The notes under the pieces are model-generated. The model saw only the letters and a list, made by a program, of their open reading frames with translations. It ran no database searches and was not told the DNA's origin. The translations under genes and the position numbers were made by a program. A stretch of DNA of 64,000 bases, from positions 59,308,104 to 59,372,103 of the forward strand of contig CM037587.1 of NCBI GenBank assembly GCA_021018995.1, read 5' to 3'. Below, piece after piece: positions 28,241 through 62,889 of the stretch. Origin of the DNA: Chloranthus sessilifolius (taxonomy: Eukaryota > Streptophyta > Magnoliopsida > Chloranthales > Chloranthaceae). Every line of letters begins with the position of its first letter. The stretch's first letter is position 1.

Positions 28241-29014
28241 GAGAGGTACCCCTCTTTTTGAAAGGGCTTGAAAATTTTCCCAAGAGAGAAGATTAAGAAA
28301 GAAGCTCCCTCTCCCTTTGGTGCCCCCTTTTGCATACAAATTCTAGAATATCCAAACCTTCTTTAATTTTTCCTCAAAAATCCCCTAGTTTAGGTGAGAG
28401 CCATCCTCTAGCTTTCCTCCTCTACCTCTTAGCTATCAAGCCCTAGGAGTTAGAACCCCTGTTCTAACCATACAAGCCATTGGAAGCTCACTGAAGCATG
28501 TCAACACAAGAATCCACGGTGGTACAACAAGGGCCCGAGAGCTCCGACTCTCCCCTCTACTCCTCTACCTTCTTTGTTTTTCCTCTATCCTCACATTTGT
28601 GTCATTATGCCACCAAAATTTTGGTAGGAACAGAGAGGCCCAAATAGGATTTTAGTGTCCTAGGGCAAGAGGAAGGACTTTTTTACTTCTTCTATTTTAT
28701 TTTTATTTTGGTCATAAGTAGAGACTGCATTAAGCGGGTTGATCGGGTGCCTAACACCTCCCGATCGATAACCGAAGCCCCTACCCAAGAGTCTTTGGCA
28801 TAGACCGGTGAATCAGAGTTATATTTGGCACTTCGGTGCATTTAATATTGATTTAGGTTTCCCAGGAAACCAAAAGCTTCGGGTGGCGACTCTAAATTTT
28901 TTACGAGTGCGCATCGTCGCGACGGGATCATCAAAAATCCGCGGTTGCACAATATTTAGCATAAACAAGCTATCAGACGTAAAATAGACCTATACAAGAA
29001 GTAGATTTTCAAGC

Positions 29015-29114
29015 TCTTGAGTTAGCGGGATCACTTGAACCGAGACATCAAGCTCCCGAGTTAGCGGGATCACTTGTTTTTAAGAATACGTAGCCAAGCT
29101 CCAGAGTTAGCAGG
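29015..29114. repeat. Triplicated short hairpin in D LTR
   Basis: Three copies of CAAGCTCCCGAGTTAGCGGG then (A/G)TCACTTG, starting near 29020, 29052 and 29092. CAAG/CTTG and CCCG/CGGG can pair within each. Confidence 0.75.
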
Positions 29115-29607
29115 AACACTTGACTCAAAACAAAGCAAGCGTGTATAGGAAATCGAGGGAAATAAGACGTGGAAATTGCAAGGTATCAAGCATGTGAGAG
29201 TATCATGAGTAAATAACATATTCGAATATATCTAACATAAAGTTATAGAATTAATACAAAGCAAGACGTAAGCATATTCATGCATCAAAACTAAAAACTA
29301 GCATAACTAGTTGAATAATAATAATGTATGTATTATGTCTTGCTATCAAGATTAGAATGAGAAAATAGCATATAAACCAATAAGGTCAAATCCCTACCTT
29401 GCGATTAAGTCTACGTGTTACACGTGCATGAATCCAAGCTATTGTCCCCTGTTTACGAGCTCTTCGTGAGCACCTAAGATGCATATAAACATGTTAAGTA
29501 TGCATAACATATTTATTGGGTCACTACAAACTCTGTACGTGTAGAATATATGATAGACTAGACCTAAGGCTCAACACAACACACACACACACACATGCAC
29601 ACCCAGG

Positions 29608-29720
29608 GTTGTCGCGGCAAGGCATAGGGTTGCCACGGCAAGCCACTCAGCTAACACCTTGCCGCAGCAACCCAAATCTTACCATGACAAGTCTGATAAA
29701 CTTAGCTTGCTGCGTGCTTC
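29608..29720 (-). promoter_or_regulatory. CTTGCCGCGGCAAG palindrome cluster in D LTR
   Basis: Five degenerate copies: GTTGTCGCGGCAAG, GTTGCCACGGCAAG, CTTGCCGCAGCAAC, CTTACCATGACAAG and CTTGCTGCGTGC. The same motif occurs upstream of the D extra ORF at 32508-32583. Confidence 0.8.
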
Positions 29721-30649
29721 TTCCTCTGGTTGTGGTTCTCAATTTCCCCTGAGCTTCCTCTCTCAGCTTATGTGTCCTTTACACTATCTTAAGTTTAATT
29801 TTGATAGAGAGTATATATTTTAATTTGGTGTGCGAGGTTCCGAAGCATTAGAAATCCAAGATTTCGGCTCCAAAACCATAGCTACAATAGATCTTACGAA
29901 ATTTTGATCTGATCTTTCAAAATCGACACTACTTTCCTATAAGCTATTTCGAGAAATTAATCTATTACGTAAGTTGCGTTATGGAGTACCTTTTTCTTTG
30001 GTTTCCTAGGTTGCAACAACGTCAAAATGATAGAGATGTTGAAATTGTGAAGTTGGTTTTGGAGATCTTGATTGTATGGTTGTGAGGAAAATCGAAAGAT
30101 CAGACGGTTGCTTCCCTCGTCTTAAATGATCCAGGGGTTTTAAGAACTTAATTTGGGATTTTCCCCCATGGTAAGAAATGAGATTTAGAGGGAAATAAGA
30201 CTTCTTTTTTCTCTGCAGGGATTTGCTTGGCTTTGTATACTGACTTTGTATACCGAAGTGGGAGAGATAAGAGGGATAGCTAAAGGCTTTATTTGCTTTT
30301 GCACTTGACGTGCATGGGAATTAATAGTGACTCACACCAACGTGGAGTCAGTTGGCAGAAGAATGGTTATAAGCTTTATAAGGCTTAGTTTCAATGTTTT
30401 TTCTGTTACACTTGTTATGGGTGTATGGGCTGGTGTAGAAATTCAAGAGTAGATTTAATACACAAATATTGAGTATATGGGGTACCTGGTTTAGTTTTAA
30501 TAAATGTACTAGGCCACTAAGGGCCCCACAATTTATCTGTCATCAACACTAATCCAAAACAGCTCTTTGTGTCCCGATGATAAGCACAAACCCGATCCTT
30601 CCCAAGTCCGTACCCGATATTGGCAGGTTTATGTTTGGCAGTTGTTACA

Positions 30650-30662
30650 CCCTCCCCTCCTT
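30650..30662 (-). other. Polypurine tract of D
   Basis: The minus strand reads AAGGAGGGGAGGG next to the LTR start TGTAACA. Confidence 0.8.
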
Positions 30663-30833: not shown

Positions 30834-31379
30834 ACATATAGATGTAAGAAAGACAAGAATAAATAGTGTGAACATTAATATGCTGAAGTTCTAACACATT
30901 CACCTCCTATATGGCAGTATATATTATAAAATAAAAACACTACGTAAAGTAAGCATGGAGAGTGTGGTACTCACTAGGCTATTGCCCATTCGGGCTTCTA
31001 TCAGCTGAAGATGGTTCGGTATACATCTGAGTGGCCTCCGGCACCAATGTGGCTGCATTGCAAGTGTACGCAAATTCGAAATTCCATGCCCGACCAACGT
31101 AAGGGGATGAGGCGGTTTTAAAGGTATGCCTCGTCAAGATAATCAAGGCGTTCGTGGAGCATGTAGTTATTTCGGTGAAGGTTTTCAAATTGTAGGAGGT
31201 TTTGTTGTTGGTTCTCCATCATTTGACGAGCAAGGTCAGACATTGTAAATGTTTCTCCTTGAGAGGGTATCGACCCTGTGGGTGTGGTTCTAGACTATTG
31301 CGGGGTAGCATGGGCTGGAATATGGTGTTCAACATGAACAGGTGGTTGGGGAGCTTGCCAAACTTTAACGGATTGCTAA
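30663..31379 (-). other. D sequence between extra ORF and LTR
   Basis: This contains a (TA)n microsatellite at 30786-30831 and the decayed C-terminal part of the extra ORF. I see no other gene. Confidence 0.6.
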
Positions 31380-32228
31380 CACCGTTGAGAAGTGTTCTTT
31401 CATTTGGCTGGGGGGTATCTGATATGGGTTTACATTGTTAGCGTCTTTATGACCTTTAAGGAGTCGGGAGATGATATGTGCATATGGAAGAGATGCCATA
31501 GGGGCGGGAACATTGTCGAGAAGATGAATGCTTACGTATATAATACCCTCCTAGACTAATCTCGGGGCATTGAGCCACCGGTTTTCATGGACGGCAAAGA
31601 GGGCATGCAAAAGAGCGTCGCGTCTCTCACGCTCATGTTGCATTGGGTATAGGTTGTGTCTAAACACAACATCGAAAAATCACATATCTTACGGTAATTG
31701 ACTTCAATGAACAGATATACCGAGAGCAATTTGTCCTCCGGTAATTTTAGTGGTGATGTGGGTAAATTTCACTTCTCTAAGTTGAGGGGCTAGGAGATCT
31801 TGACTAGCATCATACGTCGTACTACAATCCATAGCTTTGGCTATGTCATGAAGTTCGAAATGGAATTTACGTCCATCGATCTCGATGTCTAATTCACTGT
31901 CGAACTCAACAACTTTTAAATTTTGGAAAAACAGCTGTACAAGTCGGGTGTAAAAATGTGAATGTACGGGTCAAAAGAGGGCTTCTAGACCTGCTTGTTT
32001 AAGATAAATTCATGACCATGCGGTCATGTCGGTAGGGGCGAGCAAGGTCTGGTCAAAAAGCCAATCAGGTTCAATTGCCTTTGCGTTCCACCATGGAACG
32101 GGCTCTTCATGATCCATGGGTGGATCAGAATGGGATTGGAAGGTTGATGGGGCTTTGCCCTTAGATTTTTCTGATGCTTTTGGCCATACGGGCTTAAGTT
32201 TAGAGGCAGTGGTCTTCCTAGGAGGCAT
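31380..32228 (-). pseudogene. Extra ORF of D, 'putative plant transposon protein' type, broken
   Basis: It starts MPPRKTTASKLKPVWPKASE at 32228, a basic NLS-like N-terminus. The first frame stops at 32010. Beyond it, in other frames, the conserved domain is clear: TRLVQLFFQNLKVVEFDS, IDGRKFHFELHDIAKAM, FRHNLYPMQHERERRDALLH, ALFAVHENRWLNAPRLV and LPYAHIISRLLKG. The same blocks occur in order in the C (43430-42750) and A2 (58980-59650) extra ORFs. Several stops (near 32010, 31700 and 31540) mark it as dead. Function is unknown. I infer a nuclear regulator from its neighbours. Confidence 0.75.
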
Positions 32229-32272
32229 TGTAACTACAAAAAATTAAAATAAATTGCAAAGAGAGGAAAAAA

Positions 32273-32507: not shown

Positions 32508-32583
32508 AGTTGCCATGACAACACTTAATTCTTGTCGCGGCAAGTAGCTTGCCGCGGCCAGCCTAATTCTTGCTGCGGCAAAG
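32508..32583 (-). promoter_or_regulatory. CTTGCCGCGGCAAG palindrome cluster upstream of D extra ORF
   Basis: Four copies: GTTGCCATGACAAC (32509-32522), CTTGTCGCGGCAAG (32531-32544), CTTGCCGCGGCCAG (32549-32562) and CTTGCTGCGGCAAAG (32569-32583). A CATATATG TATA-like site (32493-32500) follows on the minus strand. Confidence 0.8.
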
Positions 32584-33013: not shown

Positions 33014-35510
33014 TGTTAATCTTTGAAAAGTATAACTTTTCACCCATTAACATGAGCTTTGATAGACCTATGAGTGGACTAATAAATTCTTGTTGAGTAT
33101 GTCTTGTAGATAGTAGTAAAAGGCAGTCATAGTGCAGAAATCCATCTCTCAGTGCAGTTCAGACCCAACAATGGCCCACTTAGAGTATGCAGCAACAGCA
33201 AAGCAGCTATAAAGGAGTGAAAACAGGATGAAAACAACATGTCGATAGGTTACTGGAACCTATCGATAGGATCTGAAGGCTGAAAAAAGGAAGAAGTCAT
33301 GAGGATGGGAGTATTCCATAGGATCCAGAACCTATCGCGCAATCGAAAACGAAAAGGGAGCATCCTATCGAATGGTGGCCTGAGCTCGAAGAGAACCTAT
33401 CAAGAAGTCTGGAACCTGTCGATAGGAGCTAGAAGCAAACCTATCAAAATTTATTACGCAGATATCAACCTATCGAAAGGATTCTCCAAACTGTCGATCA
33501 CACCTGATGAAGGTTGTGGATGCTGAAGCTCTATTCTCAGGAGCAACCTATCAGAATGTATCGAAAGGATCCTAAATCCTAGCGAAAGGAACAAAAGGCC
33601 TATTGGAATCTACCGAAAGCCTCAAGAACCTATCAAAATCGACTAAAGGACTTCTCAGTTGTGCACACACTGCAAGTTGGTGACCTACTGCATGCAATCC
33701 GAGGCACTCTGGTGATCGACACGAAGTTTCTAGAAGTGCCCTGGGAAACTCTAACCGACCCATGTGCTCTCCCCCAACTCTAACTAACTGTGAGAGCCTT
33801 CTAGAAGGGGAATAAAAGAGAGAATAATAGAATTATTCCAGCTGACCTGTGATTGGCGAGAAAAATAGATCTAAGGCTGAAGGGGAGAGCTATATAAGGA
33901 GAGAAGCTGCCTGCAATGAATTGAGATTAAATCCAGAGTTCAAATCTTGCAAGTGAGGGGAATATTTAGTGAAATTGGAAATAGAAAATGGAAAGAAGCA
34001 GCTTGGAGTTTGGTCTTGCTGTAATTAGATTGAGCTGACAGTGTCAGAAAGAATTCAGAGTGCATCAATCCCTCATCTGGCTATAAGCACAGCTGCAGGG
34101 TAAAAGAATCTTATCCAAGTCAGAGATTTAGATTGATCTTAAGGCTATGATCTGTCCACTTCAATGGTCACAGATCATCTAATAAATTCACCCCCATCTC
34201 AGGCATCAGAACATTATAATCACTACAAATGCTGCAATGTCAGGCCACAGACACAGGCAATGGCAGGAACATCAGGTCTAGGGAGATCAAATGGTATCTA
34301 AGAGGTCTACCAGTTAAGTGGGTGAGCTATTACCATCTACACAAATCCGATCGAGCACCAAATGAAACCAGATGAACTATGGATCTAATTAAAACAATAA
34401 AATCAGCATTGCATTGAAATAAACTCACTATACAATGAAATGCTCTCAGATTTGTAGTCTGTGCATTATCTGACCCTCAATAACACTCTCAACTCTCTCC
34501 AATTATAGATCCATCCTCACTCCTTGCTACTTCAAATAATTAGCCAACCATAGTTGGGCAAAAAGGAAGAATAGGAAATTTCGATGCAAGCTCTGATCTT
34601 GAGAATTGGTCCCCCCTCTTATATAGCTCTCCCCTTCAGCCCCAGATCTATTTTTCTCGCCAATCACAACTCAGCTGGAATAATTCTGTTATTCCCTCTT
34701 TTATTTCCCTTCTAGAAGGCTCTCTTAGTTAGTTAGAGTTGGGGGAGAGCACGTGGGTCGGTTAGGATTTCCCAGGGCACTTCTAAAAACTTCGTGCCGG
34801 TCACAAGAGTGCCTCAGATTGCGTGCAGCAGGTCACCAACTTGCAGTGTGTGCACAATAGCTTTTCTGAGAAGTCCTTCAGTTGATTTCGATAGGTTCTT
34901 CAGGCTTTCGATAGGTTCCAATAGGCCCTTTGTTCCTTTCGATAGGATTCAGGATCCTTTCGATAGGTTCCGATAGGTTGCTCCTGAGAATAGAGCTCCA
35001 GCATCCACAGCCTTCATCTGGTGTGATCGACAGGGTGGGGAAACCTTTCGATAGTTTAATCTCTGCGTAACAAATTTTGATAGGTTTGCTTCTAGCTCCT
35101 ATCGACAGGTTCCAGACTTCTCAATAGGTTCTCTTCTAGCTCAGGCAGCCATTCAATAGGATGCTCCCTTTTCATTTTTGACTGCGCGATAGGTTCTGGA
35201 TCCTATCAAATACTCCCATCCTCACGACTTCTTCCTTTTTTTAGCCTTCAGATCCTATCGACAGGTTCCAGTAAACACTCGACAGGTTGTTTTCAGCCTG
35301 TTTTCACTCCTTTAAAGCTGCTTTGCTGTTGCTGCATGCTCTAAGTGGGCTATTGTTGGGTCTGAACTGCACTGAGAGATGGATTTCTGCACTATGACTG
35401 CCTTTTACTGCTATCTATAAGACATACTCCACAAGCATTTATTAGTTCACTCATAGGTCTATCAAAGCTCATGTTAAGGGGTGAAAAGTGGTACTTTTCA
35501 GAGATTAACA
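33014..35510. repeat. Large inverted repeat of two opposed G LTRs (copy II)
   Basis: Arms are 33014-33905 and 34617-35510, with a loop of about 710 bp. The left arm starts with a full TGTTAATC. TATA boxes lie at 33890 (plus) and about 34622 (minus). CCTATCGATAGG is at 33259-33270. Compared with copy I, about 16 bp (TCTGGCAGCTTCCCTC) are missing at the loop/right-arm border. Confidence 0.9.
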
Positions 35511-35523
35511 CACCCCCAAACCT
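35511..35523 (-). other. Polypurine tract of G (copy II)
   Basis: Minus strand AGGTTTGGGGGTG before the LTR start. Confidence 0.8.
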
Positions 35524-39320: not shown

Positions 39321-41888
39321 TGTGACAGCCCGGATTTCGGCACCCCGAAACCCGCGCCATCAGCACGATCATCTTGACCGTGCCCCTCAACTATGCACGG
39401 AACACTGGTATATCAAGCATAAAATAAATAAGAACAACTTGCGGAATTTAAATCTACATAAAAACACTTCTCAAAAGACAGTTCTACCCTCATGCTTCTG
39501 CATGAAGGGAGAACCGATCCGAACCATCGATGATAACTATCATCATGGATGGTTCGCCCAAAAGAATACTCTGATATCCACATACACAAGGTTTAATCAA
39601 AAACCAGGCTTGACATACCAAGCCGTACAATCTCCAACTAAAACTCCTCAAAGTTGCACAGCAGAGTCCTCTAGAAGAAGTCCTCTGGAGGTGGCTCTAA
39701 CTCCTCGCCGGCCGCAAGGTCCGACTCACCGGTCGGCGTCTCCCCAAGCCTCGGCAATTGCTAGTAGTGGACTGCGGACGTATAGTCTATAGGGTGAGCT
39801 ACATCCTAGCTCAATAGGGAAATGTAACACGATTGAACATATAAAATATAACTCACATGTATTCTATGATATGCATGCATGATGTGTCTATGCATTTGTT
39901 GATGAAAAACAAGTTAAAATGCTTCAATTATCGTAGATTTCTTATGTCTTTTAGTTAATCATGAATGACGCCAGAAGGCCTAAAGAAAACTTAAACTTCA
40001 ACTTAAATAATCCCCGAGCAATATAGCATCGAGCCCCGAGATACCCTTCATCGTCATCTATATAGACAGCTTTTAAATGTATTCTGGGAATACCAATAGT
40101 ACCCAAGCCCTTTCCCGGGATTGGTGGCGGGTTTCACATCTCATCAACACCTGGTGTGCTTACTCAGACGGATAAGCCTCCGTCGCCCTGGATTAGCCGT
40201 CGGCCAGATCGGTCACGGATATCCCGCCGTCATATCAAACCTCAAATAACAAAAATATCGGTGCCTTACATATAGTTATTCACCTGTAATTGTGCTATCT
40301 TATATCGCTTAGGCCTCATCAAGCATGATTCAATCATGGATACATCCACAGGATGTATCCGTTCACTTGCATCACACCTGATGCCTTTACTTCTTCACTT
40401 CATCATCCCCTGGGGATGGTCCATTTAAGATCTCTTATGAACGTCACACACACACACTTTTCATAATCATTGAGTAGTAAAACATTTGAATTGAATTGAT
40501 ATCATTACATACATGCACTTGTAAAATAAAGTACATGTTCAGGGTGTTCCTACCTCAAGTCTTTAGATCAATGCATCAAGGTCCCGCGTGGCTCCTTGTG
40601 CACTCGTTCTCACGCACTCACCTATGGTACCATATAACATGTGAAACACATCACAAAGGATGCTATAGAGAAGGTATAAGATCCCCAAGAATCTTAAAGT
40701 CAAACCAAAAGTCAACATAGTTTACTACGATTTCGAACTCCAAAATCGATTAATCGAATCGATTCGATTAATCGATTTCCAAAATCGATTAATCGAAAGT
40801 CAATATCGATTAATCAAGCAATTTCGATTAATCGAAATTCTCCTTTTCGCAAAGTCCATTCTCGCTCGAATAAATAATTGTCATTCGATTAATCGAATCC
40901 AATTTCGATTAATCGAAATTCTTCTTTTCGCAAAGTAAATTTCTTTATTCGAGCAATAATGAGCTTTCATTCGATTAATCGAATCCAAATTGGAATAACC
41001 GAAATCCTTCTTTTCGCAAAGCAGACCCTTATTTCGAATAGTCGATTTTCACAAGTTGATTAATCGATTCCAAATCGATTAATCGAAACCAAAATCGATT
41101 AATCGAAATCCCATTTCGATTAGTCGATTTTTCCTTAAGTTATTTCCTCCAACCCCCGGGTCCATCGGAGGTGCTCGACGATTAATCGATTCTCAAATCG
41201 ATTAATCGAAATCAAAGTCGATTAATCGAAATTCAATTCGATTAATCAAATCGGTCCTCTGACTCTTCAACTTCACGCCAATTTCGATTAATCGACCAAT
41301 TTCGATTAATCGAAATTGTCGATTCAAGCTGTTCTTCCCAATCTTTTTCCATACTTTTTCTTCTATCTTTCTAAGCCATTATCCTATGATTTAACCCACA
41401 TTTTACTGCAACTTAACCCCTATAATCTATGCATCTTATTTACAAAAAATTTACCTTGGATAGACCTCAAGTTGAGTTCTATCAATGGTTGGAAGGCTAG
41501 GGTTTCTAGCTTTGGTTCTAACGGATCCCTTGCGTCGAATCCGGCCTCTTTAATGCTTGACTCCCTCTTCCAAACAGTTGCAATAACTCCTCTCTTACTC
41601 CTCTCTCTTTCTCTCTCTTCTTTACTTCTCTCAACCACCAAAACATGAAAGTTAGGGTTTTCAACCCTTTTTATCTTATCTCTTTTTCTCGGCGTGGAGC
41701 ACATACACACTCATCAGTGTATGTAACTCTACAACTCCTCTATCTCTCCACTCTTCTACACTGATTCACACATCACTTCTGCTCATCTCACCTTAAGTTC
41801 ATCAATGAACTATCTCATGGTCAAACCTAAGACCAATCGGGCACGGATCCCGAGGTCATAGTTCAATGTGATTTTTCGGGCTATTACA
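39321..41888 (-). repeat. 3' LTR of C
   Basis: 2,568 bp. Nearly identical to 49531-52160 apart from many small indels. Contains about 20 TCGATTAATCGA motifs (40735-41325). Confidence 0.95.
40735..41325 (-). promoter_or_regulatory. TTTCGATTAATCGAAA palindrome cluster in 3' LTR of C
   Basis: About 20 copies of the TCGATTAATCGA palindrome or close variants, extended in several cases to TTTCGATTAATCGAAA, interspersed with CTTTTCGCAAAG. Confidence 0.9.
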
Positions 41889-42293: not shown

Positions 42294-43662
42294 CTATGGA
42301 AGGCGGTGCGTCCGTCCCCATTCTTCTTCATATCCATGTAGGTGTGGGGTAGATGAATCGAGGGTGTGAAACATGAGGAAATCAATCCTCCTGTTCTTCC
42401 TCTCGTTATTCTCTTTCATTCTGGCCAACACGTCCTCTGTGGTAGGACCGGATGGAGCAGGGCCCCAGCGGAAGGATGAGGTGGGTGGCGCGGGCGCGGA
42501 GTGTGGAGGTGGTGTCGGCGTGGTGTGGTGTGGAGGGAACCCTCTCCACAGATGGCTCTGGGTAGTGGTGTGCCCCACCCTCAAGTGGGTCCCTGGCCGA
42601 GGTGGTGGGGGTGGTGGCGGCACTGCTGCCGCCGCTTGGGGTCACAAGGAGCGGGACCCGGAGCTGGTAGGGTCCGCTTCAAAAGGTTGTAGCTACGGGT
42701 CCATGAAGACTTTGTGAACGTCTTCACGCGATCCGTAGCCCTCACCTCGTGAGGAGAAATAGTGTAGGAGGGCTCGCCAGAGTAGCACTCCAACATGCTC
42801 GAGATGAGCCGAGCATACGGCATCTTCTCCTTGGGCCGCATGTTGCCCTTCATCAGCTTACTCTTGATGTACCGCATCCCCTCAAGGATGACCATGGTAG
42901 CATCAAACCATCGGCCACAGAAGGCCGCGTAAAGTGCATGTTGCACTTTATCCACGCGCTCCGTGTCGTGGCGCATCGGGTAAAGGTTGCATTTTATTAT
43001 GGAGTCGAGCATCCACATGTAGGGTGGAAGGTCGACCCTCTTGATGGACGTGCCCGACCCCTTCTTCCCGTTGGTCATGCGAGTCATGACCTCTTCAAAA
43101 CGGGGTTCCTTTTCAAAGGGTGGGAATAGGGTAGTCTCGGGAGTAAAGTCGAGGTAGCATTCAAGCACCTCATGTATGTGTCGACGAGTGATCGTATAGA
43201 GACGACCCTCGATCTTGGTTATAATACAATCGTCGCTAGGGCCATTGGTTAGCCCTTGGTAGAACAACCTCACCAATCTAGGGTAATAGGAACCCCGGAT
43301 TGGTTTGAGAAGGTTGCCGAGTCCGGCACTGGTTAGGTAGTTCTGAGCCCATTGGGTCTCGCCCGGTAAATCGGGATTTGTGAATAGGGTAGGGTCGATG
43401 GTGTATTCGACCTCAAAGGTCTTGGCAGCCCACCACTGCTTGGTAGCCCCACGTTGGTGGGTGGTGGTGGCATGGGGGTGGATCCGCGGGAAGACTCGCG
43501 CGTAGATGCGCCCGTCGAACCGGAGGTGGTCTCCGATTCCGACGGTGATGGAGTCCTCACCGGCGATGGGGTAGGTGGTGGTGGTGCGGCGTTCTTACGC
43601 CTAACCGGTAGCTTGGAGGTTGCCTTCTTCGAAGACAAACGTGTTTTGGGCGGCATTTTCAC
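42294..43662 (-). pseudogene. Extra ORF of C, 'putative plant transposon protein' type, frameshifted
   Basis: The start is MPPKTRLSSKKATSKLPVRR at about 43656 (ATG ATG context), a basic N-terminus followed by a Pro/Ser-rich stretch. After a frameshift near 43440 the conserved domain runs: TFEVEYTIDPTLF, GLGNLLKPIRGSYYPRLVRL, FYQGLTNG, ITKIEGRLYTITRRHIHEVL, VDLPPYMWMLDSIIKCNLYP, ALYAAFCGRWFDATMVILEG, MPYARLISSMLECYSGE. A further frameshift near 42600 leads to a Pro-rich segment and a basic/acidic helix (ARMKENNERKNRRIDFLMFH). The same blocks occur in A2 and D. Downstream of pol, with its own TATA and telo-box. Confidence 0.8.
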
Positions 43663-43869: not shown

Positions 43870-43880
43870 TTATATATATA
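43870..43880 (-). promoter_or_regulatory. TATA box between palindrome cluster and C extra ORF
   Basis: CTATATATATAAG on the minus strand, directly downstream of the TCGATTAATCGA cluster and about 215 bp before the ATG. Confidence 0.65.
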
Positions 43881-43887
43881 GGCCTCG

Positions 43888-44460
43888 GCTCGATTAATCG
43901 AAATTCCATTTCGATTAATCGAAATTTAAAACTAGGTTAAGCCGCTTAAAATCGATTAATCGATTTCCCAAATCGATTAATCGAAAGTCAAATTCGATTA
44001 ATCGAAAATATTTCGATTAATCGGAATCGTGTCTGTTTAAAACTTCAAATTTTTAAGCTCACTGGCGCTTGCCACCGACATCAAATCCATTTCGATTAAT
44101 CAAATCGGCTACAACTTCAACTTTTCTAAACTTTCTTAAGTATTCGACATCGAATCCATTTCGATTAATCGAAATTCAAAAATCAGTTCGATTAATCGAA
44201 ATTGTCCATTTGACTCTAACATCTCTCAAGTCCTCTAAGTAACTCGATTAATCGAAAATCCAATTCGATTAATCGAATTACAAAATCGATTAATCGAAAT
44301 TCCATTTCGATCAATCGAAACTCTATTTCTATGTATATTCTAACTCAAATTTTTCATTTCCTGTCACTGGCACACGCCAGTCGACTAATCGAACAAAATC
44401 GATTAATCGAAATTCCAAATCGATTAATCGATTTGAAATTCGATTAATCGGTTTTGCCCT
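43888..44460 (-). promoter_or_regulatory. TTTCGATTAATCGAAA palindrome cluster upstream of C extra ORF
   Basis: About 17 copies of TCGATTAATCGA or close variants in 570 bp. The same motif fills the LTR. It lies between the chromodomain and the extra ORF, where no LTR sequence is present. Confidence 0.9.
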
Positions 44461-44595: not shown

Positions 44596-45990
44596 TCACG
44601 TTGTTGGAAACAAGGCCGGATATTGTTCTTTCACATCGGCCTCTCGTTCCCAAGTAGCCTCTTCTTTTGGATGATTGTTCCACCGAACAAGCACTAAGGG
44701 AATCACTTTAGTGCGCAGTACTTGCTCTTTTCGATCCAGAATCTCCACTGGTTCCTCTATCATGCTCATGTCCTCACACATCTCTATAGGTTGCTTTCCT
44801 AACACATGAGACGGATCATTCACGTACTTTCTGAGCATCGATATGTGGAAGACATTATGTACTCGATCAAATAGCGGTGGTAAACTAATGCGATATGCAA
44901 CTTCACCTACTCTTCCCAAAATTTCAAATGGCCCAACATATCGTGGACATAACTTCCTCTCTTGCCAAATCTCATTACACCTTCATAGGTGACACCTTCA
45001 CAAACACATGCTCGCCCACCTTGTAATCAACACTAGTCCGCTTCACATCGGTAACTTTTCTGCTTCTACTCAGGCCGCCTTCAACCTTTCTCTGATAATT
45101 CGGACAACGGTGGCGTTGTCTTCAAGCAGTTTCGGTCCTAATACAAATTTCTCACCTGTTTCCTCCCAATTCAGAGGTGACTTGCATCGTCCATCTACAG
45201 AGCTTCATACGTGCCATGCCAATGCTCGTTTGAAAATCATTGTTATATGCGAACTCGAGCATCGGTAGATACTCATCCCAAAGATCCTTGCATATCAAGC
45301 ATGCAAGCTCGAGCATGTCTTCTATCACTTGATTCACCCGCTCTGTCGCCCCATCGGTTTGAGGATGGATTTGAACTAAAGTCTAATCGTGTTCCCATTC
45401 CTTCTTGAAATTTCTTCCAAAACTTGGGCGTATATAGTGGATCACGATGCGAAACTATCTTGCTTGGAATCCATGTAATCTTACAATCTCCTTCATGTAT
45501 AAATTCTTGATCTTCTGCGGTATATGTAGTATATATGGCAAAAGTCTGTTGATTTGGTCAATCGGTCTCTGACGACCCAAATGGCATTGTGTCTCTTAGC
45601 GATGCAGGTAATCCAACAATGAAATCCATTGAGATCGATTCCACTTCCATTACGGTATTGGTAAAGGTTGCAATAGTCCGGGGATGTCTATGATCAACCT
45701 TCACTTCGACAAGTCAAACATCGTGACACATACTACGTCTTGTTTGATCCTCTCCACGATAATTCTTTTTCAAATCTTGGTACATTTTGGTGCTACCGGG
45801 GTGGATAGCATAATTTGACTTATGAGCTTCATCAAGAATTGTTCGTCTTAGATCGGCATTGTCCGGATGCATAGACGGCCTTTAAACAACAAAGAACCAT
45901 CTTCTTTTTACGAAGTCCGACGATGCCTTCATTCACGTCTTGATAAATCTTCGTTAATGTCGGATCCTTCATCATAGATCGTGGATATGC
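44596..45990 (-). pseudogene. Integrase C-terminus and chromodomain (C)
   Basis: The open end (44919-44596) reads GRVGEVAYRISLPPLFDRVH, VFHISMLRKYV, then the chromodomain core VLVRWNNHPKEEATWEREAD, which targets integration to chromatin in chromoviruses. Upstream is decayed integrase, for example WDEYLPMLEFAYNNDFQTSI near 45240. Many frameshifts. Confidence 0.85.
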
Positions 45991-49530: not shown

Positions 49531-52160
49531 TGTGACAGCCCGGATTTCGGCACCCCGAAACCCGCGCCATCAGCACGATCATCTTGACCGTGCCCCTCAA
49601 CTATGCACGGAACACTGTATATCAAGCATAAAATAAATAAGAACAACTTGCGGAATTTAAATCTACATAAAAACACTTCTCAAAAGTTCTACCCTCATGC
49701 TTCGCATGAAGGAGAACTGATCCAACCATCGATGATAACTATCATCATGGATGGTTCAGAAAGAATACTCGATATCCACATACACAAGGTTTAATCAAAA
49801 ACCGGGCTTGACATACCAAGCCGTACAATCTCCAACTAAAACTCCTCAAAGTTGCACAGAGTCCTCTAGAAGAAGTCCTCCGAGGTGGCTCTAACTCCTC
49901 GCCGGCCGCAAGGTCCGACTCACCGGGGTCAGCGTCTCCTGAAGCCTCGGCAGCTGCTAGTAGTGGACCTGCGACGTATAGTCTATAGGGTGAGGTACAT
50001 CCTAGCTCAATAGGGAACAGAACACGATTGAACATATAAAATATAACTCACATGTATTCTATGATATGCATGCATGATGTGTCTATGCATTTGTTGATGA
50101 AAAACAGTTAAAAATGCTTCAATTACTGGTAGATTTCTTATGTCTTTTAGTTAATCATGAATGACGCTGAGAAGGCCTAAAGCAAAACTTAAACTTCAAC
50201 TTAAATAATCCCCGAGCAATATAGCATCGAGCCCCGACGAGATACCCTTCATCGTCATCTATATAGACAGTTTTAAATGTATTCCCTGGGAATACCAATA
50301 GTACCCAAGCCCCTTTCCCCTGGGGATTGGTGGCGGGGTTTCACATCTCATCAACACCCCTGGGGTGTGCTTACTCTGTACGGATAAGCCTCCGTACTGG
50401 CCTACGGATTAGCCGCCGTATCGGTCACGGATATCCTGCCGCGTCAGTCGTGGTTATCCCGCCACGTCGGTGGGGTAACCTATCAAACCTCAAATAACAA
50501 AAATATCGGTGCCTTACATATAGTTATTCACCGTATAATTGTGCTATCTTATATCAGTTAGGCCTCATCAAGCATGATTCAATCATGGATACATCCCTGG
50601 GATGTATCCGTTCACTTGCATCACACCTGATGCCTTTACTTCTTCACTTCATCATGCCCTGGGGATGGTACATTTAAGATCTCTTATGAATGTCACACAC
50701 ACACTTTTCATAATCATTGAGTAGTAAAACATTTGAATTGAATTGATATCATTACATACATGCTCTTGTAAAATAAAGTACATGTTAGGTGTTCCCTACC
50801 TCAAGTCTTTAGTCGATCAATGCATCAAGGTCCCGCGTGGCTCCTTGTGCACTCGTTCTCACGCACACCTATGGTACCATATAACATGTGATACACATCA
50901 CAAAGGATGCTATAGAGAAGGTATAAGATCCCCCAAGAATCTTAAAGTCAAACCAAAAGTCAACATAGTTTACTACAGTCGATTAATCGAACTCCAAAAT
51001 CGATTAATCGAATCTGATTCGATTAATCGATTTCCAAAATCGATTAATCGAAAGTCAATATCGATTAATCGAAGCAATTTCGATTAATCGAAATTCTCCT
51101 TTTCGCAAAGTCCATTCTCAGTTCGAACAGTCGAATTGTCATTCGATTAATCGAATCCAATTTCGATTAATCGAAATTCTTCTTTTCGCAAAGTAAATTT
51201 ACTGTTCGAACAGTCGAGCTTTCATTCGATTAATCGAATCCAATTTCGATTAATCGAAATCCTTCTTTTCGCAAAGCAGACCCTTAGTTCGAATAGTCGA
51301 TTTTCACAAGTTGATTAATCGATTCCAAATCGATTAATCGAAACCAAAATCGATTAATCGAAATCCCATTTCGATTAGTCGATTTTTCCTTAAGTTATTT
51401 CCTCCAACCCCTGGGGTCCACTGGAGGTTCTCAGTCGATTAATCGATTCTCAAATCGATTAATCGAAATCCAAAGTCGATTAATCGAAATTCAATTCGAT
51501 TAATCGAAATCGGGGTCCTCTGACTCTTCAACTTCCTGGCCAATTTCGATTAATCGAAACCCAATTTCGATTAATCGAAATTGTCAGATTCAACCTTCCC
51601 AATCTTTTCTTTAATCTTTTCCATACTTTTTCTTCTATCTTTCTAAGCCATTATCCTATGATTTAACCCACATTTTTACTGCACTTAACCCCTATAATCT
51701 ATGCATCTTATTTACAAAAAAAATTTACCTTGGATAGACCTCAAGTTGATTTCTATCAATGGTTGGAAGGCTAGGGTTTCTAGCTTTGGTTCTAACGGAT
51801 CCTCATGCGTCAATCCCGCCTCTTTAATGCTTGACTCCTCTTCCAAAGCTTGCAATAACTCCTCTCTTACTCCTCTCTCTTTCTCTCTCTTCTTTACTTC
51901 TCTCAACCACCAAAACATGAAAGTTAGGGTTTTCAACCCTTTTTATCTTATCTCTTTTTCTCGGCGTGGAGCACATACACACTCATCAGTGTATGTAACT
52001 CTACAACTCCTCTATCTCTCCACTCTTCTACACTGATTCACACATCACTTCTGCTCATCTCACCTTAAGTTCATCAATGAACTATCTCATGGTCAAACCT
52101 AAGACCAATTGGGCACGGATCCCGAGGTCATAGTTCAATGTGATTTTTCGGGCTATTACA
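49531..52160 (-). repeat. 5' LTR of C
   Basis: 2,630 bp with about 20 TCGATTAATCGA motifs (50975-51590). Small length differences from the other LTR concentrate at CTG, CAG and CCTGG sites. Confidence 0.95.
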
Positions 52161-53871: not shown

Positions 53872-54881
53872 TTGGGTCAACTTTCAAATACTTTGGCCAA
53901 AAGAGAGGAAGGCAGGTTACCCAGCCAACCCTTGAACAATCCTAAAGGACAGTTCATGGTTGGAGATGACTCTGTTTCACATGAAGAAGTAAAAGCTATC
54001 ACTACTTCGAGAAGTGGAAGAGTTGTAAATAACAGTGTGAATCCTGAAAAAGAAGAAGAAAAAATTGAGGAAACTGCGAGAAACATGCAGCAGGAGCAGC
54101 ATGATGTTAGCATTGGGGGTACTGATGTACCTCAGAAAAATCAAAAAAATGAAAAAAAAACTATGGTGATGATTCTAAAGCTATAAATGAAGGACCAGTT
54201 CCTCATTTACCATTTCCCCATGCCATAAAATATGCATCCCCTTTTGATAAAGGGAATACAAAAGTAGACGAAATGATAGAGACTTTCAAGCAAGTCAAGA
54301 TAAATCTACCTTTTCTTGATGCAATCAAACAAGTCCTAGCATATGCAAAATTTTTGAAAGATATTTGCACTCACAAAAGACAATCTAGGATACAGTTATC
54401 CAAGAAGGTCTTTGCTGTGGAAAGAGTTAAACAGGTTTTGTCCATTACCACACCTCCTAAACTTCAAGATCCTGGAATCCCCACAATCCCTTGCATTATT
54501 GGAGAACATACCATTGAAAAGGCTTTATTAGATTTGGGTGCTAGTGTCAACCTGCTTCCATATTCTATATATGAGAAACTAGGTTTGGGAGAGTTAAAAC
54601 CCACTCATGTGGTGTTACAACTAGCAGACAGATCTAAAAGAAAGCCAGTTGGGATGATTGAGGATGTATTGGTAAGGGTAGATAAGTTTTTCTACCCTGC
54701 TGATTTTTTGGTATTGGAAATGGAACCTACAAAAAGCAGATCTTCCATCCCTGTCATTTTGGGGAGACCATTCCTGGCTACAGCCAATGCTTACATTCAA
54801 TGCAGGTCTGGTATTATGAAAGTGTCTTTTGGAAATATGAAGGTAAAGTTAAATATTTACAATGCAATTACACAACCTTAA
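53872..54881 (+). pseudogene. Gag-protease linker and protease (A2)
   Basis: The linker MGQLSNTLAKREEGRLPSQP runs to a frameshift near 54170. The protease frame (54273-54881) has ALLDLGASVNLLPYSIYEKL and IPVILGRPFLATANAYIQC. It continues past the A1 deletion to VKLNIYNAITQP. Confidence 0.9.
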
Positions 54882-55001
54882 TTCAGTTCTGAGGAATGTT
54901 TTTTTGTTGATTAGTTGGATGAACTAGTAGAAGAAACTTTACCATAGTTTTTACAGTGTGAAGATTTAACCACAGATTTTGAAGATGTTTAGAGAAATGT
55001 T

Positions 55002-56790: not shown

Positions 56791-56796
56791 AATAAA

Positions 56797-58020
56797 ATGG
56801 ATAAAGATCTTTTCTTCTCAAAGGTTAAACATTTTATTTGGGAGAATCCTTATCTGTTCAAGATTTGTGCAGACCAAATAATTAGAAGATGTGTCCATGA
56901 AGAAGATTTCCATAGCATACTTTCCATGTGTCATGAATAGGCCTGTGTAGGTCATTTTAGTGGCAACAAAACTGTTGCAAAAGTTTTGCAATGTGGATTT
57001 TATTGGCCCACACTCTTCAAAGATCAAAGATGTAAGTCTTGTCGTCAATTGTGAGATTGGGCAAAGATTTCAAGAGAAATTCAATGCCTTTACAGCCTAT
57101 TTTGGTAGTGGAATTGTTTGATATTTGGGGGATAGATTTTATGGGACCTTTTCCTCCTTCAAATGGTTTTAATTTCATCTTAGTAGCTGTGGATTATGTA
57201 TCCAAATGGGTTGAAGCCACAGCCACTAAAACCAATGACCACAGAATTGTCCTGAAATTCTTAAAGGACAACATCTTTTCTAGGTTTGGTTCCCCCAGAG
57301 CCATTATCAGTGATGGGGGAAGCCATTTTTGTAACAAGCATTTTGAAGTTCTATTGAAAAAGTACTCTGTGACTCTCAGAGTAGCTACTCCGTATCATCC
57401 ACAGACCAGTGGACAAGTGGAGATTTCCAATAGAGAAATCAAACATATACTGGAAAAGACTATGAAGAAGGACAGAAAAGATTGGTCCCTTAAACTGAAT
57501 GATGCATTGTGGGCATATAGGACAGCCTATAAAACCCCAATTGGCATGTCCCCATTCAGATTGGTCTTTGGTAAAGCATGCCATTTACTAGTGGAGTTAG
57601 AATATAAGGCCTTTTGGGCTATTAAAACCTTGAACATGGATCTTACTACTGCTGGTAATCACAGGAAACTGCAGCTTGCTGAGTTGGAGGAGCTGAGGAT
57701 GGATGCATACACCAATGCAAGATCTTACAAAAAAAAAAGTTAAGGCTTTATATGACAAAAATCTGTTGAGAAAAGAGTTCATAGCTGGCTCTAAGGTATG
57801 GCTATTCAACTCAAAACTTAAGTTTTTTCCTGGAAAGTTGAGATCCAAATGGGAAGGGCCATATACTATCATTCAATCATCTCCTTCTGGGGCTGTTGAA
57901 ATTATGGACCCAAGTGATGGGAGAACCTTGAAAGTAAATGGTCAAAGGCTCAAACCATGCATTGAAAATACCTTGGAGCCTGTGCTGACCATCTATCATC
58001 AAGAGCCTCCACAAATCTGA
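56797..58020 (+). pseudogene. Integrase (A2), full length but broken
   Basis: Integrase zinc region with a TAG near 56938 (CAG in A1) and a rearranged CKSCQNC region near 57030, then intact [33 protein letters not shown] and [18 protein letters not shown] run of A near 57729-57738 shifts the frame into the C-terminus ([20 protein letters not shown]), ending at TGA 58018-58020. No chromodomain. Confidence 0.9.
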
Positions 58021-58135: not shown

Positions 58136-58440
58136 GTGAAAAATCAATTCGCAAAGAAAATAAATTCGTTTCGAAAAGTATAATTTCCTTTTCGAAAAGG
58201 ATCTGGACCTGTAACCAACTGCTTAAAAAGAATGATAAACTTTTCGAATAGATGTTTCTGAAGCCTTTTACTTTTCGAATAGGTGGTTCTGAAGCTTTTT
58301 GCCTTTCGAATGGTACTGATGCCATTCTCCTTTTCAAAAAAGGACTGTTTTGAACTTTTCGAAGACTTCAAAGATGCTTTGCGAAAATCAATTTAAGCAC
58401 ATTTAAACCCTTTCGAAGCAAGGGTTTCATATTCGAAAGC
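58136..58440 (+). promoter_or_regulatory. TTCGAA palindrome cluster upstream of A2 extra ORF
   Basis: About ten TTCGAA-core motifs, including the perfect CCTTTTCGAAAAGG (58187-58200) and CTTTTCGAATAG (58240-58251 and 58271-58282). These are the same motifs as in the LTR, in the other orientation. Confidence 0.85.
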
Positions 58441-58619: not shown

Positions 58620-58715
58620 ATTTCGGTATTTTTCTTTGCATATCCTATGTTTCTGTTTTACAAAGTTGATTTCTGTGTCAGCATACATTGTGTGAGATTC
58701 AAACAAAGTTTTAAA

Positions 58716-61109
58716 ATGGGGAAAGCTGAAAAATCACTGGCTGCAATGTTCCCTAGGTCTTCTGCTAAGAAAGTTAGTAAACTCTCCACCAAAGGAAAAG
58801 CCAAAACCTCAGCCAAGAGGAAACTTTCGATAGATAAAGCTGATAAGATTAAGAAAGGGAAGAAGGTTAGACATGAGGAACCCATCCCAGCAGCTGACCC
58901 TAGTCCTGAGCCTGAGCTTCCTCCTCTTCCTATGCATTTGGTACTGCCAAACCCTTTCATTGAAGCTCAGAAGCTGATCCCAGAGCTTATTATTGATGAA
59001 ACTTTTTTCTTGAACAAACCTGAATGTAAGCTATCCTTGAACTACATCGGGGATGCTTCACTGAGAAATATCCTAACCCCTCTTCCTGAGAAAATCTATC
59101 CAAGAATGGTGAGATTATGGTACCAAAACATGGTGAAAGTGACTGAGAAGGATGCTAATGTCCCAACTCTTATAATTTTCATTGATGATTGTGATTTAAA
59201 CAGTCACTTATGAAGACATTGGAAATGCCTTGGGAATACCATTTCAGCATGATCCGGCTGGTCCTTTGGCTGCACCAGAGACAGCTTCTTTTAGAGAAAT
59301 GGCTGCACATCTAACCCAAGGCATAGTTGGAACTGGACAATCCATCATGAGGAGAGACTTAGCACCTCAATTTTTGCTGATGGATTCCATTTTGAGAGGA
59401 TGTTTTTATGTCACTGGGCATAGTCAGGAAAGAAGGACACCCATTTTGGAGGCCCTCTTTCATTTTTCAAAAGGGCAATTCTTCAATGCCCCTATGCTGA
59501 TTTTTGAAGCCATGGCTGACATTAGTGCCAAGATAAAGAAGGAACAAAAAATAGCTGGAATACCATTTGGAAGGCTGATCATAGCCCTACTTAGGGCCAA
59601 ATTTGACATTGATGAGCAAGAGCCATTTGAAATGTATCCCCTCATGCTTTTAGGAAGAGGGCTTGGACTACAAGCCAAACCATGTTGGATAGAATGAGGG
59701 AGGAAGCTGAGCCAGCTCAAGAACCTGATATACCTGCACCTGAGGTGACCAGCTCTTTAGTTGCACCCACTGCCCCTGCAATTGCCAGAGAACCTGCTAT
59801 ACCGGAACCAGAGGTGACCAACTCTTTAGCTGCACCTATTGCACCTGAAGCTGACATTGAGCATACTACCATTGCGAAAGTGACTAGCTCTTTAGCTGCA
59901 CCCATTGTTGAGGAGGTCATCATCTTACCCACTTCACCTAGCACAACTCCTATTCCTTCACCCATTCCAGCAGTACCATCACTCATCACCACCATAATCC
60001 CAATTGCAGACTATCCCCCTACACCAACCACTCTAGCCATACTTACACCACCAATTTCACCTAACAATGTCCAAGATATCGCCACAGATTTTGTTGAACA
60101 CTCTCCTAGCACTCCTCTCCTCCAAAGCTTCTCAGGTTCACCTGCTCATTCAACTCATACACCTAAAATCACTCATACCCCTGAACCTGAGATATTCACA
60201 ACAGAGGCCTATTCATCTTTGATGGGATCTATCTTGGAGAATATTGGGCTTCAATCTGTTCCCATACCTGACCCTCCTCATTTCACCCATTTGGCTACTT
60301 CCCCCTTTACAGCCATTTCACCCATTGCCCCTCAACCATCTACATCAATTTTACCAGCCCCTACTTTGCATACCACACCCACACCTGACACAATTAACCA
60401 AATCTTCACCTTTCTCCAATCCATCCAAGCCCAACTACAGATCAACACAGACAACCAGCCTGTGACAAATTCCATTCTCCAAACCTTGGCCTCCACATCC
60501 CAAACAACCACCGTAGCCACAGTACCTTTTGTTTCTGACCATGCTACCCAATTCGAACCTGAGGCAATACTTTTAGATTCACTTACACCCATCCTTAATG
60601 TCTCTGATCAAGCCACCACTGCTGGAATACATATGGTCCCCTACCACTCCATTCCCATCCCATGTTTTGCCACTCTTAAAAGGGCTATGGAAGATAACCC
60701 TTACATCTTTCACGACGTCCTTAAGGGGATTGCGGATTTCCACACTTACATCAAAACCCCTTATGAAGAACAGATTCAGAAGCTGGAGCTGTTTATGAAA
60801 TTTGAGAGAGAAAAGATGCGAGACCTGTTGAGCCAAACATTTCAGATGGTTAGGAGTGAGCAGCACAAAGTTACCATGTTACAAGAATGTCTGGCACAAG
60901 AAAAACTGAGGAGTGAGAGACTTGAAAAATATATTGGCCTCACCAAAAAGATCAAATCTGAGGAGTACACCGAGCTTCAAGCCACAATCCAGGAGAAAGC
61001 TAAATCGAGTTCAGACTCCAATACTGACTCAAGTTCTGACTCTAACAGTGATTCCAATTCTAACCCCATTGAACCAACTTATGATACAGATTTTGACCCC
61101 AGTTATTAG
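58716..61109 (+). pseudogene. Extra ORF of A2, 'putative plant transposon protein' type, two compensating frameshifts
   Basis: Start MGKAEKSLAAMFPRSSAKKV at 58716. I preferred this ATG over the upstream one (58647) because it begins the basic NLS-like region. The conserved domain includes LRNILTPLPEKIYPRMVRLW and YQNM. After a one-base shift near 59200 it continues with EDIGNALGIPFQ, MRRDLAPQFLLMDSILRGCF, ERRTPILEALFHFSKGQFFN and APMLIFEAMADI. A second shift near 59680 returns to the first frame, with a long Pro/Thr/Ser-rich region, a coiled coil (about 60760-60990, EEQIQKLELFMKFEREKM) and an acidic Ser/Asp tail. Homologous to the C and D extra ORFs. Athila elements often have such 3' ORFs ('env-like'). 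I see no signal peptide or transmembrane segment here. Confidence 0.8.
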
Positions 61110-62889
61110 AATACCTTGTACATGTTTGTTTTGTTGGTTCGGTAGTGTGCAATTAATGTTTACTGTTGACTTTTGTAATTTGCAATTACTGTGCATTTCT
61201 TGTCTTTCTTCTCTGTCAATCTGCTCTTCGTTTTTTGTTCTTTTCTTTTTGCTCATGCACTTCTGGACCAGTGAGGACACTGCTCATCATAAGTTTGAGG
61301 GTGAGGCAGAATTGCCAATAGTTTAGTTAACATCAATACAGCATATGAGCAGCAGAATTTTTGAAATTGAAGTGTTTTCACACCCGCTTATTTTTGAAAA
61401 AAAATGAGGAAGTTAAAACTTTTTAAAATTAATTTCCTAAAGTAATTCTAATACTTTCATGAAGTGAATGTCAGAAAATTTTCAAAAGAAAATTGATGTT
61501 TTAGTAAACCTAAAAAGAGAGGAAACAGTGATGATATACCTCAGGAATTTGATAGAAAACCACACCTAGTGAGATTTGGGCCTGAAATGTATTCTTTGGA
61601 GGTATGAATTAGCAATTTTTTCTGCTCTAGGGACTGTTTGAACTTGCTTACTATCACTAGAAGTTACACATATCCAAATTGAAATAATTTGACAGCAATC
61701 ATGATATTAAAGACATGATGTAAGGCCCCCTTTTGGACAATTTGAACTTCAAAAAAATCCCCACCTTTTAAAACGGCCCTTGGTACACACCATTTGAGCT
61801 TTATAAATCTAAGATTTCTTTGAAACCTCATTAACAAACCTCATCAACCTCATTTAGCTGAATCCTCACTCTAAAAATTCAGAAGGTAAAGGAAAGGAAG
61901 CTGAAGAAAGGAGAGTTGGGTAACAGTTGATGATAGAAAAAAAAATAGTTGAAGGGAAATGATGTATCAGCAGAAGAAGTGTGGCATTCCAGTCAAATGT
62001 CATTTTGTAAAAAAAAAAAAAAAAAAAAAAAACAAAGAACAAAAAAAAAGGGGAAGAAAAGTCATTTCATTTGAAGTTTGAAAAAGAAAGAGAAAAAGAT
62101 GGTCACTTTGGCTCTGAAAATTCAAAGGAGAAAATGAAATTGTGATGAATTAAAGGTGTATCTGTCACTTCCTTACCTTGACTGACTTCTAGATTTTGGA
62201 ATCCATTCCAACCCCTTTATTCTTGATAAATTTCACCCATAAGCCACATTACAACCCAAGTTAAAGTCCTTACTGATCAATGATGGATTGAGCTGTCACA
62301 TGGAGATAAGGATTTGTATAATCTATGGTGAAAAGAGCAGTGAATTCAGAACTAAAAAGCAATGCCTATGCTCCTGCTTACAGCCCTATTTGAGGGCTAT
62401 AACTGCTCTTGAGCTGTGTGAAATAGTACAACCCTCTTACTTGCATGATGAGTGAAAATCCTGGAGAGAGTTGAATTTAAAATCAACTTATTGGGGTAAC
62501 ATCAAAACTAAATTCTCAAATAGAAGGCAAGCTTTTCATTAATTTGTCTTGTAAAAACTTTTTGACACAAACTGAGTGAATGGTAAAAGGAATTACAGCA
62601 GAATTTTAGTTTTAAACTGATATTTTCTTGAGATTCCTCTACTGACCGATGGGTGTGAATAACTGATTGGATGAAAGTGCTTAATGTAACTGCATTGATA
62701 TTAACTGATTTATTGGAGAAGTTTGTGGGTACCTTCACTGAAACCCTCAGGAGACTTCACTCCTCCACTAGGGATCACCCAGGGGTTTAAAAGGCTTGTT
62801 GCATACTAAATGCAACTGTGCTCTCTACAAAAATGGTTTTTTTCATTCTGTTTTTAAATTTTGTCTTTGCTCAGGGACTAGCAAAGCTT
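61110..62889 (+). other. 3' noncoding region of A2
   Basis: No gene. Matches the minus strand of 2531-4321 and 35524-37328. Contains an A run of about 23 (62009-62031) and A/G-rich stretches. Confidence 0.75.

Follow-up and report, generated by a model that had tools for sequence, protein, structure and literature searches.

The DNA considered here, 64,000 nucleotides of Chloranthus sessilifolius contig CM037587.1 (positions 59,308,104 to 59,372,103; hereafter the window), consists of nested plant long terminal repeat (LTR) retrotransposons. Its subject of interest is an arrangement that recurs among them, in which a short, family-specific palindrome is repeated in the LTR and repeated again in the gap before an extra open reading frame (ORF). 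An earlier interpretation made from the letters alone, the sequence-only reading, had described this layout in four families, A, C, D and E, and had proposed that the ORF encodes a dimeric protein binding the palindrome of its own element. In the chromovirus-like family C element (39321-52159, minus strand) the order is gag, reverse transcriptase (RT), SH3_Tf2-1, chromodomain and then a sense extra ORF with a Transposase_32 match, its orientation being taken from the minus-strand RT, gag and chromodomain. Family A, on the plus strand, has an Athila-like order with no chromodomain in the pieces scanned, and family D is present in the window as an LTR and a broken extra ORF. The labels Athila-like and Tat/Ogre-like are presumptive and follow from domain order. 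The orientation of the E LTR was taken from its TATA word. The features of these four families are as follows.

39321..41887, minus strand: family C 3' LTR, chromovirus-like; palindrome array at 40743-41318 with 13 exact TCGATTAATCGA; LTR pair from self-BLAST
42584..43657, minus strand: family C extra ORF, broken; Transposase_32 (PF20167) match in the piece 42584-43594, start codon at 43657 in a different frame
43870..43880, minus strand: TATA-like box between the C palindrome array and the C extra ORF, from the sequence
43888..44450, minus strand: C array before the extra ORF; 12 exact TCGATTAATCGA, 17 sites with at most one mismatch to the 10-bp core
44599..44982, minus strand: end of C pol, SH3_Tf2-1 and chromodomain (Pfam)
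49531..52159, minus strand: family C 5' LTR; palindrome array at 50979-51583
4533..6403, plus strand: A1 copy of the family A LTR, with ends judged by eye; TTCGAAAAG/GCGAAAAG sites at 4828-4995 (self-BLAST, sequence)
58170..58363, plus strand: family A sites before the extra ORF, of CTTTTCGAA type, one an exact CCTTTTCGAAAAGG
58716..61109, plus strand: extra ORF of family A, spanning at least two reading frames; Transposase_32-like middle at 59200-59694 (Pfam 7.1e-4)
62904..64000, plus strand: family A 3' LTR, truncated at the window end; sites at 63222-63396, TATA at ~63772
28949..30650, minus strand: LTR of family D, its ends set by eye from a polypurine stretch and TG/CA; degenerate CTTGCCGCGGCAAG sites at 29608-29671
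31368..32230, minus strand: family D extra ORF, broken; homologous to the C extra ORF (BLASTP)
32531..32582, minus strand: family D sites before the extra ORF, degenerate copies
24571..25242, minus strand: pieces of the family E extra ORF, opposite in orientation to the LTR, with plant mobile domain matches (Pfam 3.5e-5 and 4.3e-5, each under the cut-off)
26291..26363, no strand assigned: family E palindromes, two sites between extra ORF and LTR, by consensus match
27380..28943, plus strand: family E LTR, ends by eye; three palindromes at 27795-27952, TATA at ~28233

The palindrome is confined most clearly in C and A. Every one of the 43 exact TCGATTAATCGA copies in the 64 kb belongs either to a C LTR (13 and 18) or to the gap that precedes the C extra ORF (12). 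For A, TTCGAAAA has five copies in LTR A1, six in the gap, and no copy in the A gag-pol (~12 kb), extra-ORF and 3' untranslated stretches counted. The pattern in D is weaker, with three degenerate copies at the LTR and three at the gap. In E, five sites (two in the gap, three in the LTR) lie within six mismatches of a 25-bp consensus built from these same sites; no other match at this distance is present in the window, and none within seven mismatches was returned from five surrogates. The evidence for E comprises the window and a genome pattern count, in which the exact E palindrome occurs 117 times and the reversed word 0 times. Furthermore, of all internal stretches the gap preceding the extra ORF shares the most 8-mers with the LTR in each of the four elements, with values of 54 against a mean of 22.7 (standard deviation, sd, 7.7) for A, 157 against 40.3 (sd 28.6) for C, 42 against 23.0 (sd 9.7) for D and 50 against 22.3 (sd 7.9) for E. 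In a degenerate-word test the observed value was reached by none of 60 shuffles for any of the four, the top word being of the palindrome kind in A, C and D, and for E an AT-rich word other than the palindrome. Chance clustering was rejected for A, C and D on the basis of 8-mer sharing, shuffles and the de novo scan described below, the support for E being weaker. A second motif, CTTTTCGCAAAG, is present three times in each C LTR (40843, 40924, 41010; 51099, 51182, 51265) and, on the opposite strand, once in each of two A LTRs (4869; 63239).

The layout claimed for the four families is therefore borne out, strongly in A and C, with few and degenerate copies in D and E. The D palindrome that had been quoted is absent from the window in its exact form, and that quoted for A occurs exactly only once, in the gap, the A LTR carrying half-site variants. 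The interval 28952..62889 given for the whole set does not include E, and the second clusters, described as far from any LTR, are at an actual distance of ~1 to 4.5 kb.

BLASTP shows the A, C and D extra proteins to be homologous (4e-18, 1e-10, 4e-13, 2e-11 and 6e-9; those to the C extra ORF being 4e-18 and 1e-10 from A, and 4e-13 and 2e-11 from D). The PF20167 domain lies between pol and the 3' LTR in C (2.2e-9, 37.9 bits, and so under the curated cut-off of 45) and in A (7.1e-4), whereas the four extra-ORF pieces of D in the window have no Pfam match of their own, and the domain is assigned to them through homology to C. Transposase_32 was matched in 18 of 18 aligned rows scanned (E<=1). As the sequence-only reading had noted, the N-termini of the A, C and D proteins are basic by eye; the coiled coil it had ascribed to A agrees with a helical or coiled-coil appearance of the C-terminal stretches in all three proteins, again by eye. 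The A protein further shows, to the eye, a P/T/S-rich stretch and an acidic C-terminus behind its basic N-terminus. A structure prediction for the C extra ORF (AlphaFold, seven aligned pieces) was too poor to be used (predicted local distance difference test, pLDDT, 40; predicted template modelling score, pTM, 0.22), a protein database search returned 614 candidates, none significant, and a search of a plasmid collection gave no match. The E extra ORF is unlike these, being composed of plant mobile domain pieces antisense to the LTR; one of them (24571-25053, minus strand) has a weak match (E 0.12) to DUF1985, a domain named in VANC proteins.

In the 2.17 Gb host genome the exact word TTTCGATTAATCGAAA occurs 23,671 times and its reversed form 0 times. 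Searched with PF20167, this genome yielded 13,855 candidates at a loose first look; scores were computed for 150, and every one of the 150 listed was above cut-off. From the genome we took 58 further loci in a non-random manner, namely the 30 top Pfam matches (L005-L034, forming two nucleotide clusters of 27 and 3) and 28 loci hand-picked for diversity from lists of 150, 150 and 119 places; together with A, C and D of the window these make 61 loci, A being represented by its window locus alone. These were scanned de novo, blind to the motifs of the sequence-only reading, with 992 non-AT palindromic 10-mers (Poisson probability under a first-order model, p<=1e-6, uncorrected for the 992 words), the scan omitting 250 bp either side of the domain. 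For D, I and most H loci "LTR" here signifies the stretch downstream of the ORF, with no mapped LTR pair. An upstream palindrome reached the threshold in 50 of the 61 loci, and in 39 of these 50 the same palindrome ranked first of the 992 downstream. The chosen word had no site in the domain coding stretch at any of the 61 loci, and only one of 33 control windows reached 1e-6, within a tandem duplication at 10.5-11.8 kb.

The top 30 loci all belong to one kind, family H, which has no member in the window. Allowing up to three mismatches to CACGGACGTCCGTG, 26 of the 30 carry 5 to 11 copies before the extra ORF (the exceptions being L005 with 0, L017 with 3, and L012 and L032 with 4), and 28 carry 1 to 5 copies after it, L007 and L010 having none. 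A TTGATCGATCAA array in L055 was considered as a new family and rejected; as the L055 protein is of the H clade, the array (L055 36-400) is probably that of a neighbour. At a guess, the TCGACTAGTCGA array downstream in L057 (3261-3713) likewise comes from a neighbouring element.

The palindrome follows the protein clade. In a tree of 26 rows, C, I and H (including L055) are starred sets, D has 94/96 and M 69/95, and the matrix of motif against clade for the 61 loci is nearly diagonal. A clade's own motif is present upstream in 37/39 H, 5/5 C, 8/9 D, 2/2 I, 5/5 M and 1/1 A loci, downstream in 35/39 H, 5/5 C, 9/9 D, 2/2 I, 0/5 M and 1/1 A, and in the domain stretch of none of the 61. As such, three expectations of the sequence-only reading hold at this larger scale: the layout recurs with motifs that differ between families, motif identity covaries with the extra-ORF subfamily, and the clusters are absent from the coding stretches counted. 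Matrix loci outside the tree were placed mostly through query or BLAST similarity, and since L035, L057 and L058 (H) and L053 and L054 (M) were placed partly by motif, the agreement is partly circular for them. Counts off the diagonal include 15 upstream copies of the AT-rich A word, spread over 12 of 39 H loci, and 24 downstream copies of the C/I core in 2 of 39 H loci; the M word is found downstream in 3 of 5 C loci, and the D word three times in the domain stretch of I. C and D are sister clades with unrelated palindromes, and both loci of family I carry two motif versions (the CGATTAATCG core and CGATGCATCG), each at both places. The M palindrome word is CCTCGCGAGG, and each family palindrome (H, C/I, D, M, A and E) includes a CpG. 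In sum, the palindrome stands both in the LTR and before the extra ORF in A, C, D, H and I, in E as far as the window goes, and upstream only in M.

These families do not appear to belong to a single superfamily. The D relatives L043 and L044 have SH3_Tf2-1 before the gap, L043 also a chromodomain; upstream, an integrase core was matched both in I (L056) and in M (L064), and a Ty3-type RNase H in M as well. Tracts of AGGGGGAG number two to three in six of seven H loci inspected and one in L038, and no such tracts were found in this sense in two loci each of I, D, C and M. Multiple tracts of this type are given as a Sirevirus mark (Bousios et al. 2010, PMC2829016), and by its repeated tracts H looks like a Sirevirus; C and D, bearing SH3_Tf2-1 and chromodomain, are not Sireviruses. 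Taken together, the H tracts and the pol domains in D, I and M suggest that the same Transposase_32 domain, with the same layout, is present in both superfamilies.

In some families the arrays are followed closely by TATA-like boxes. A TATA-like box lies 8-10 bp past the last palindrome core in the window copy of C and in 4 of 4 relatives (in the window copy ~220 bp before the start codon); in M the corresponding distance is 14 or 36 bp (2 of 2 loci). The H LTR, which apparently starts a few bases after the last AGGGGGAG tract, has a TATA word beyond the last box in 4 of 4 loci examined, at 11 bp in three of them and at 18 bp in the other. In the LTRs of A, B, E, F and G the TATA word is roughly 250 to 400 bp past the last site, the sole TATA word found in the C LTR is ~690 bp past it, and in the D LTR the palindromes are downstream of TATA-like words, not upstream. 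The flanks between cores mostly hold less than 1 bit per base and, being variable, indicate that the arrays are not plain tandem copies; the core information near 2 bits arises in part from the site-picking procedure.

The rest of the window includes three further LTR families, as well as a likely extra-ORF end near family F, at ~4325-4530 on the minus strand by eye.

20707..23988, plus strand: solo LTR of family G, each end flanked by ATAGT as judged by eye; 17 CCTATCGA upstream of TATA words
17250..19454, minus strand: family B LTR, ends by eye; CCTCTCGA / CCTATCGA array
1..2517, no strand assigned: family F LTRs, apparently inverted; CCTATCGA array, from self-BLAST

The word CCTATCGA is common to F, G and part of B, and the array of the A LTR differs from those of B, F and G. 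The apparent solo LTR of G (3.3 kb, its 5-bp flanks matching by eye) probably lies within element E. The two F stretches, 1-903 and 1607-2509, are inverted and 91.8% identical. A 13-kb stretch is present twice in the window at ~95% identity (1-12999 against 33014-39320 plus 52154-57903), with the C element splitting the second copy; the C LTRs are 92.7% identical, below the value for the 13-kb copies, although C apparently inserted after the duplication. The pol of A1 contains a tandem duplication at 10514-11828, with units of ~310-337 bp.

The layout is not new in kind, and extends an arrangement already known from Sireviruses. In Bousios et al. 2010 (PMC2829016), palindromic repeated motifs (RM) are described in LTRs upstream of TATA, with extra copies in the linker of nine Sireviruses that have an env-like gene (77 of 79 lying upstream of ENV) and no linker copies in four that lack one; host stress factors were favoured as an explanation, and an internal promoter was also considered. 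Our finding is thus an extension and not the first of its type, and the statement of the sequence-only reading that no such description existed for LTR retrotransposons is contradicted. The RM boxes resemble the present arrays in being palindromic, CpG-bearing and of many copies, located in the upper LTR and in the linker that precedes the env-like ORF. The core CGGACGTCCG is found both in H and in the published Usier box. They differ in belonging to Ty1/copia elements and in bearing mostly a CGG-CCG signature, whereas here chromovirus-like and Athila-like Ty3/gypsy elements also take part, with other motifs and a Transposase_32 ORF; the CGG-CCG core is present only in H, the A, C, I, D, M and E words being without it. 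In our searches of the open-licence PMC literature we found no report of the layout in Ty3/gypsy elements, of a tie to Transposase_32, or of a proposal that the extra protein binds the palindrome. What is new here, as such, is the layout in Ty3/gypsy elements, the shared protein, and the agreement of motif with clade.

Other systems offer partial parallels. In VANDAL elements (Hosaka et al. 2017, PMC5735166) an element-encoded protein class likewise accompanies short family-specific motifs in the element's own non-coding DNA, and these motifs differ between related families; here, too, the non-coding motifs are repeated and differ between related families, except that C and I have a motif in common, as do F, G and part of B. 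The way VANC acts also resembles the mechanism proposed here. VANDALs are DNA transposons, however, their VANC domains are DUF1985 and DUF287, and their motifs YAGTATTAY and AGTTGTCC are non-palindromic; VANC binding and demethylation were shown for VANDAL, whereas binding by the present proteins is a proposal. DUF1985 and DUF287 were absent at E<=1 from all 18 Transposase_32 rows scanned, and the absence of DUF1985 from these rows indicates that these extra proteins are not VANC members. Retand and Grande elements (TRP28, gene23) also place an extra ORF between pol and the 3' LTR with tandem repeats nearby, a promoter of its own being reported for gene23 and DNA binding being predicted for TRP28. 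Those ORFs are antisense and have another Pfam domain, and no palindrome shared by LTR and gap is described in the portions of the sources drawn on (PMC11963269, PMC7264820). Family E is, we infer, most like them. A sunflower Athila extra ORF has Transposase_32 in the same place and a predicted nuclear localisation signal, with no palindrome analysis described in the part of the account used (PMC11728184).

Given these observations, it is reasonable to postulate that several plant LTR retrotransposon lineages have in common a design of two promoters and one motif, with the extra protein as candidate regulator, and to this reading we assign a probability of about 0.5. The LTR promoter would drive gag-pol, and an apparent internal promoter the Transposase_32 extra ORF, with an array of a family-specific short CpG palindrome in the LTR and another directly before the extra ORF. 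The palindromes may be cis-regulatory sites of one sequence-specific, probably dimeric regulator acting on both promoters at once; that they are promoter sites with one regulator per family is likely. Least certain is the identity of this regulator, which could be the extra-ORF protein itself, a self-recognising activator or anti-silencing factor that would switch on its own family. The arrays before the extra ORF, the change of motif along with protein between sister clades, and the basic, P/T/S-rich and acidic organisation of the A protein favour this identity, which we place a little below even odds.

A number of results weigh against this interpretation. No upstream palindrome was significant in 11 of the 61 loci (L005, L043, L045, L046, L048-L051, L053, L054 and L058), six of them D-type, in which consensus matching gives 0 to 2 D sites upstream, and in 11 of the 50 that had one, the upstream word was not first downstream (L007, L010, L035, L038, L039, L041, L047, L052, L055, L057 and, at rank 2, window A). 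M is without the downstream half, there being no LTR copy in the stretches examined; at L052, a further 5 kb downstream and 4 kb upstream held scattered sites and no LTR array. C and I, whose proteins are distant, have the core CGATTAATCG in common, and motif and protein are consequently not one-to-one; the second motif of the C LTR is not in the C gap, yet is in the A LTR. No standard TATA word was found between array and ATG in 13 of 20 loci tested, the start codons of L059-L062 and L039 being assumed. On the protein side, Pfam gave no DNA-binding domain in the extra proteins and PDB held no relative (the C protein was unmatched, and the 18-row profile gave a best E of 1.9), leaving no DNA-binding fold known or modelled. 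Last, because clade equals element family, the matrix provides only six independent points, of which A is one locus, and common descent within a family alone would also give agreement between motif and clade.

The principal rival is that host transcription factors, for instance stress factors, bind the palindromes at both promoters while the extra protein does something else. This is the explanation favoured for the Sirevirus boxes (PMC2829016), and it would accommodate the distant proteins of C and I having the same core, the presence of CTTTTCGCAAAG in A and C LTRs and of CCTATCGA in F, G and part of B, and the fact that the Usier box contains the same CGGACGTCCG core as H. If a conserved host factor were at work, however, one motif should be favoured, and the unrelated palindromes of the sister clades C and D, along with an A array unlike those of B, F and G, argue otherwise; in addition, the pre-ORF boxes of the nine and four Sireviruses mentioned above track the presence of the env-like ORF (PMC2829016). 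We regard host factors as unlikely, though less so than any of the remaining alternatives.

Perfect, loop-free palindromes suit dimer binding, and this counts against the arrays acting instead as RNA or single-strand structures, whether as hairpins that feed or evade small-RNA silencing or as guides for reverse transcription. All five array pieces folded do have z-scores of -5.2 to -7.1 relative to shuffles, but any palindrome array folds well, and RNA folding cannot decide the mechanism; that sites abut TATA-like boxes in C, M and the H LTR, and that own-motif sites avoid the domain coding stretch, makes a structural role improbable. A passive origin, in which part of the LTR was copied to the site before the extra ORF, or the similarity of gap and LTR is maintained by recombination, with no trans-acting factor, is slightly less probable again: one 210-bp stretch of C gap and LTR aligns at 75% (BLAST), whereas the flanks between cores vary and the layout recurs with unrelated palindromes. 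The few and degenerate D and E copies in the window, and the repetition of AT-rich words as well, are what an artefact of chance or base composition might produce, yet the 8-mer peak in the gap, the de novo scan and the motif-clade matrix leave it almost no weight, and the counts make it very unlikely for C, H and I.

A broader possibility, offered more tentatively than the shared promoter design, is that the Transposase_32 ORF is a mobile self-recognising regulator gene, encoding a dimeric DNA-binding protein whose specificity co-diverges with the palindrome of its own LTR and own promoter in Ty1/copia Sireviruses and in chromovirus-like and Athila-like elements, and that it would represent a counterpart to VANC which arose in, or spread across, two superfamilies. 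There is no consensus on what the env-like and other extra ORFs of plant LTR retrotransposons do, and the presence of one palindrome at both promoters, in unrelated lineages and in agreement with clade, provides a concrete and cheap test of whether such a protein binds its own palindrome. If it does, a very abundant class of plant elements would consist of self-regulating units whose divergence runs through the motif, and the label "env-like" would have to be reconsidered in their case.

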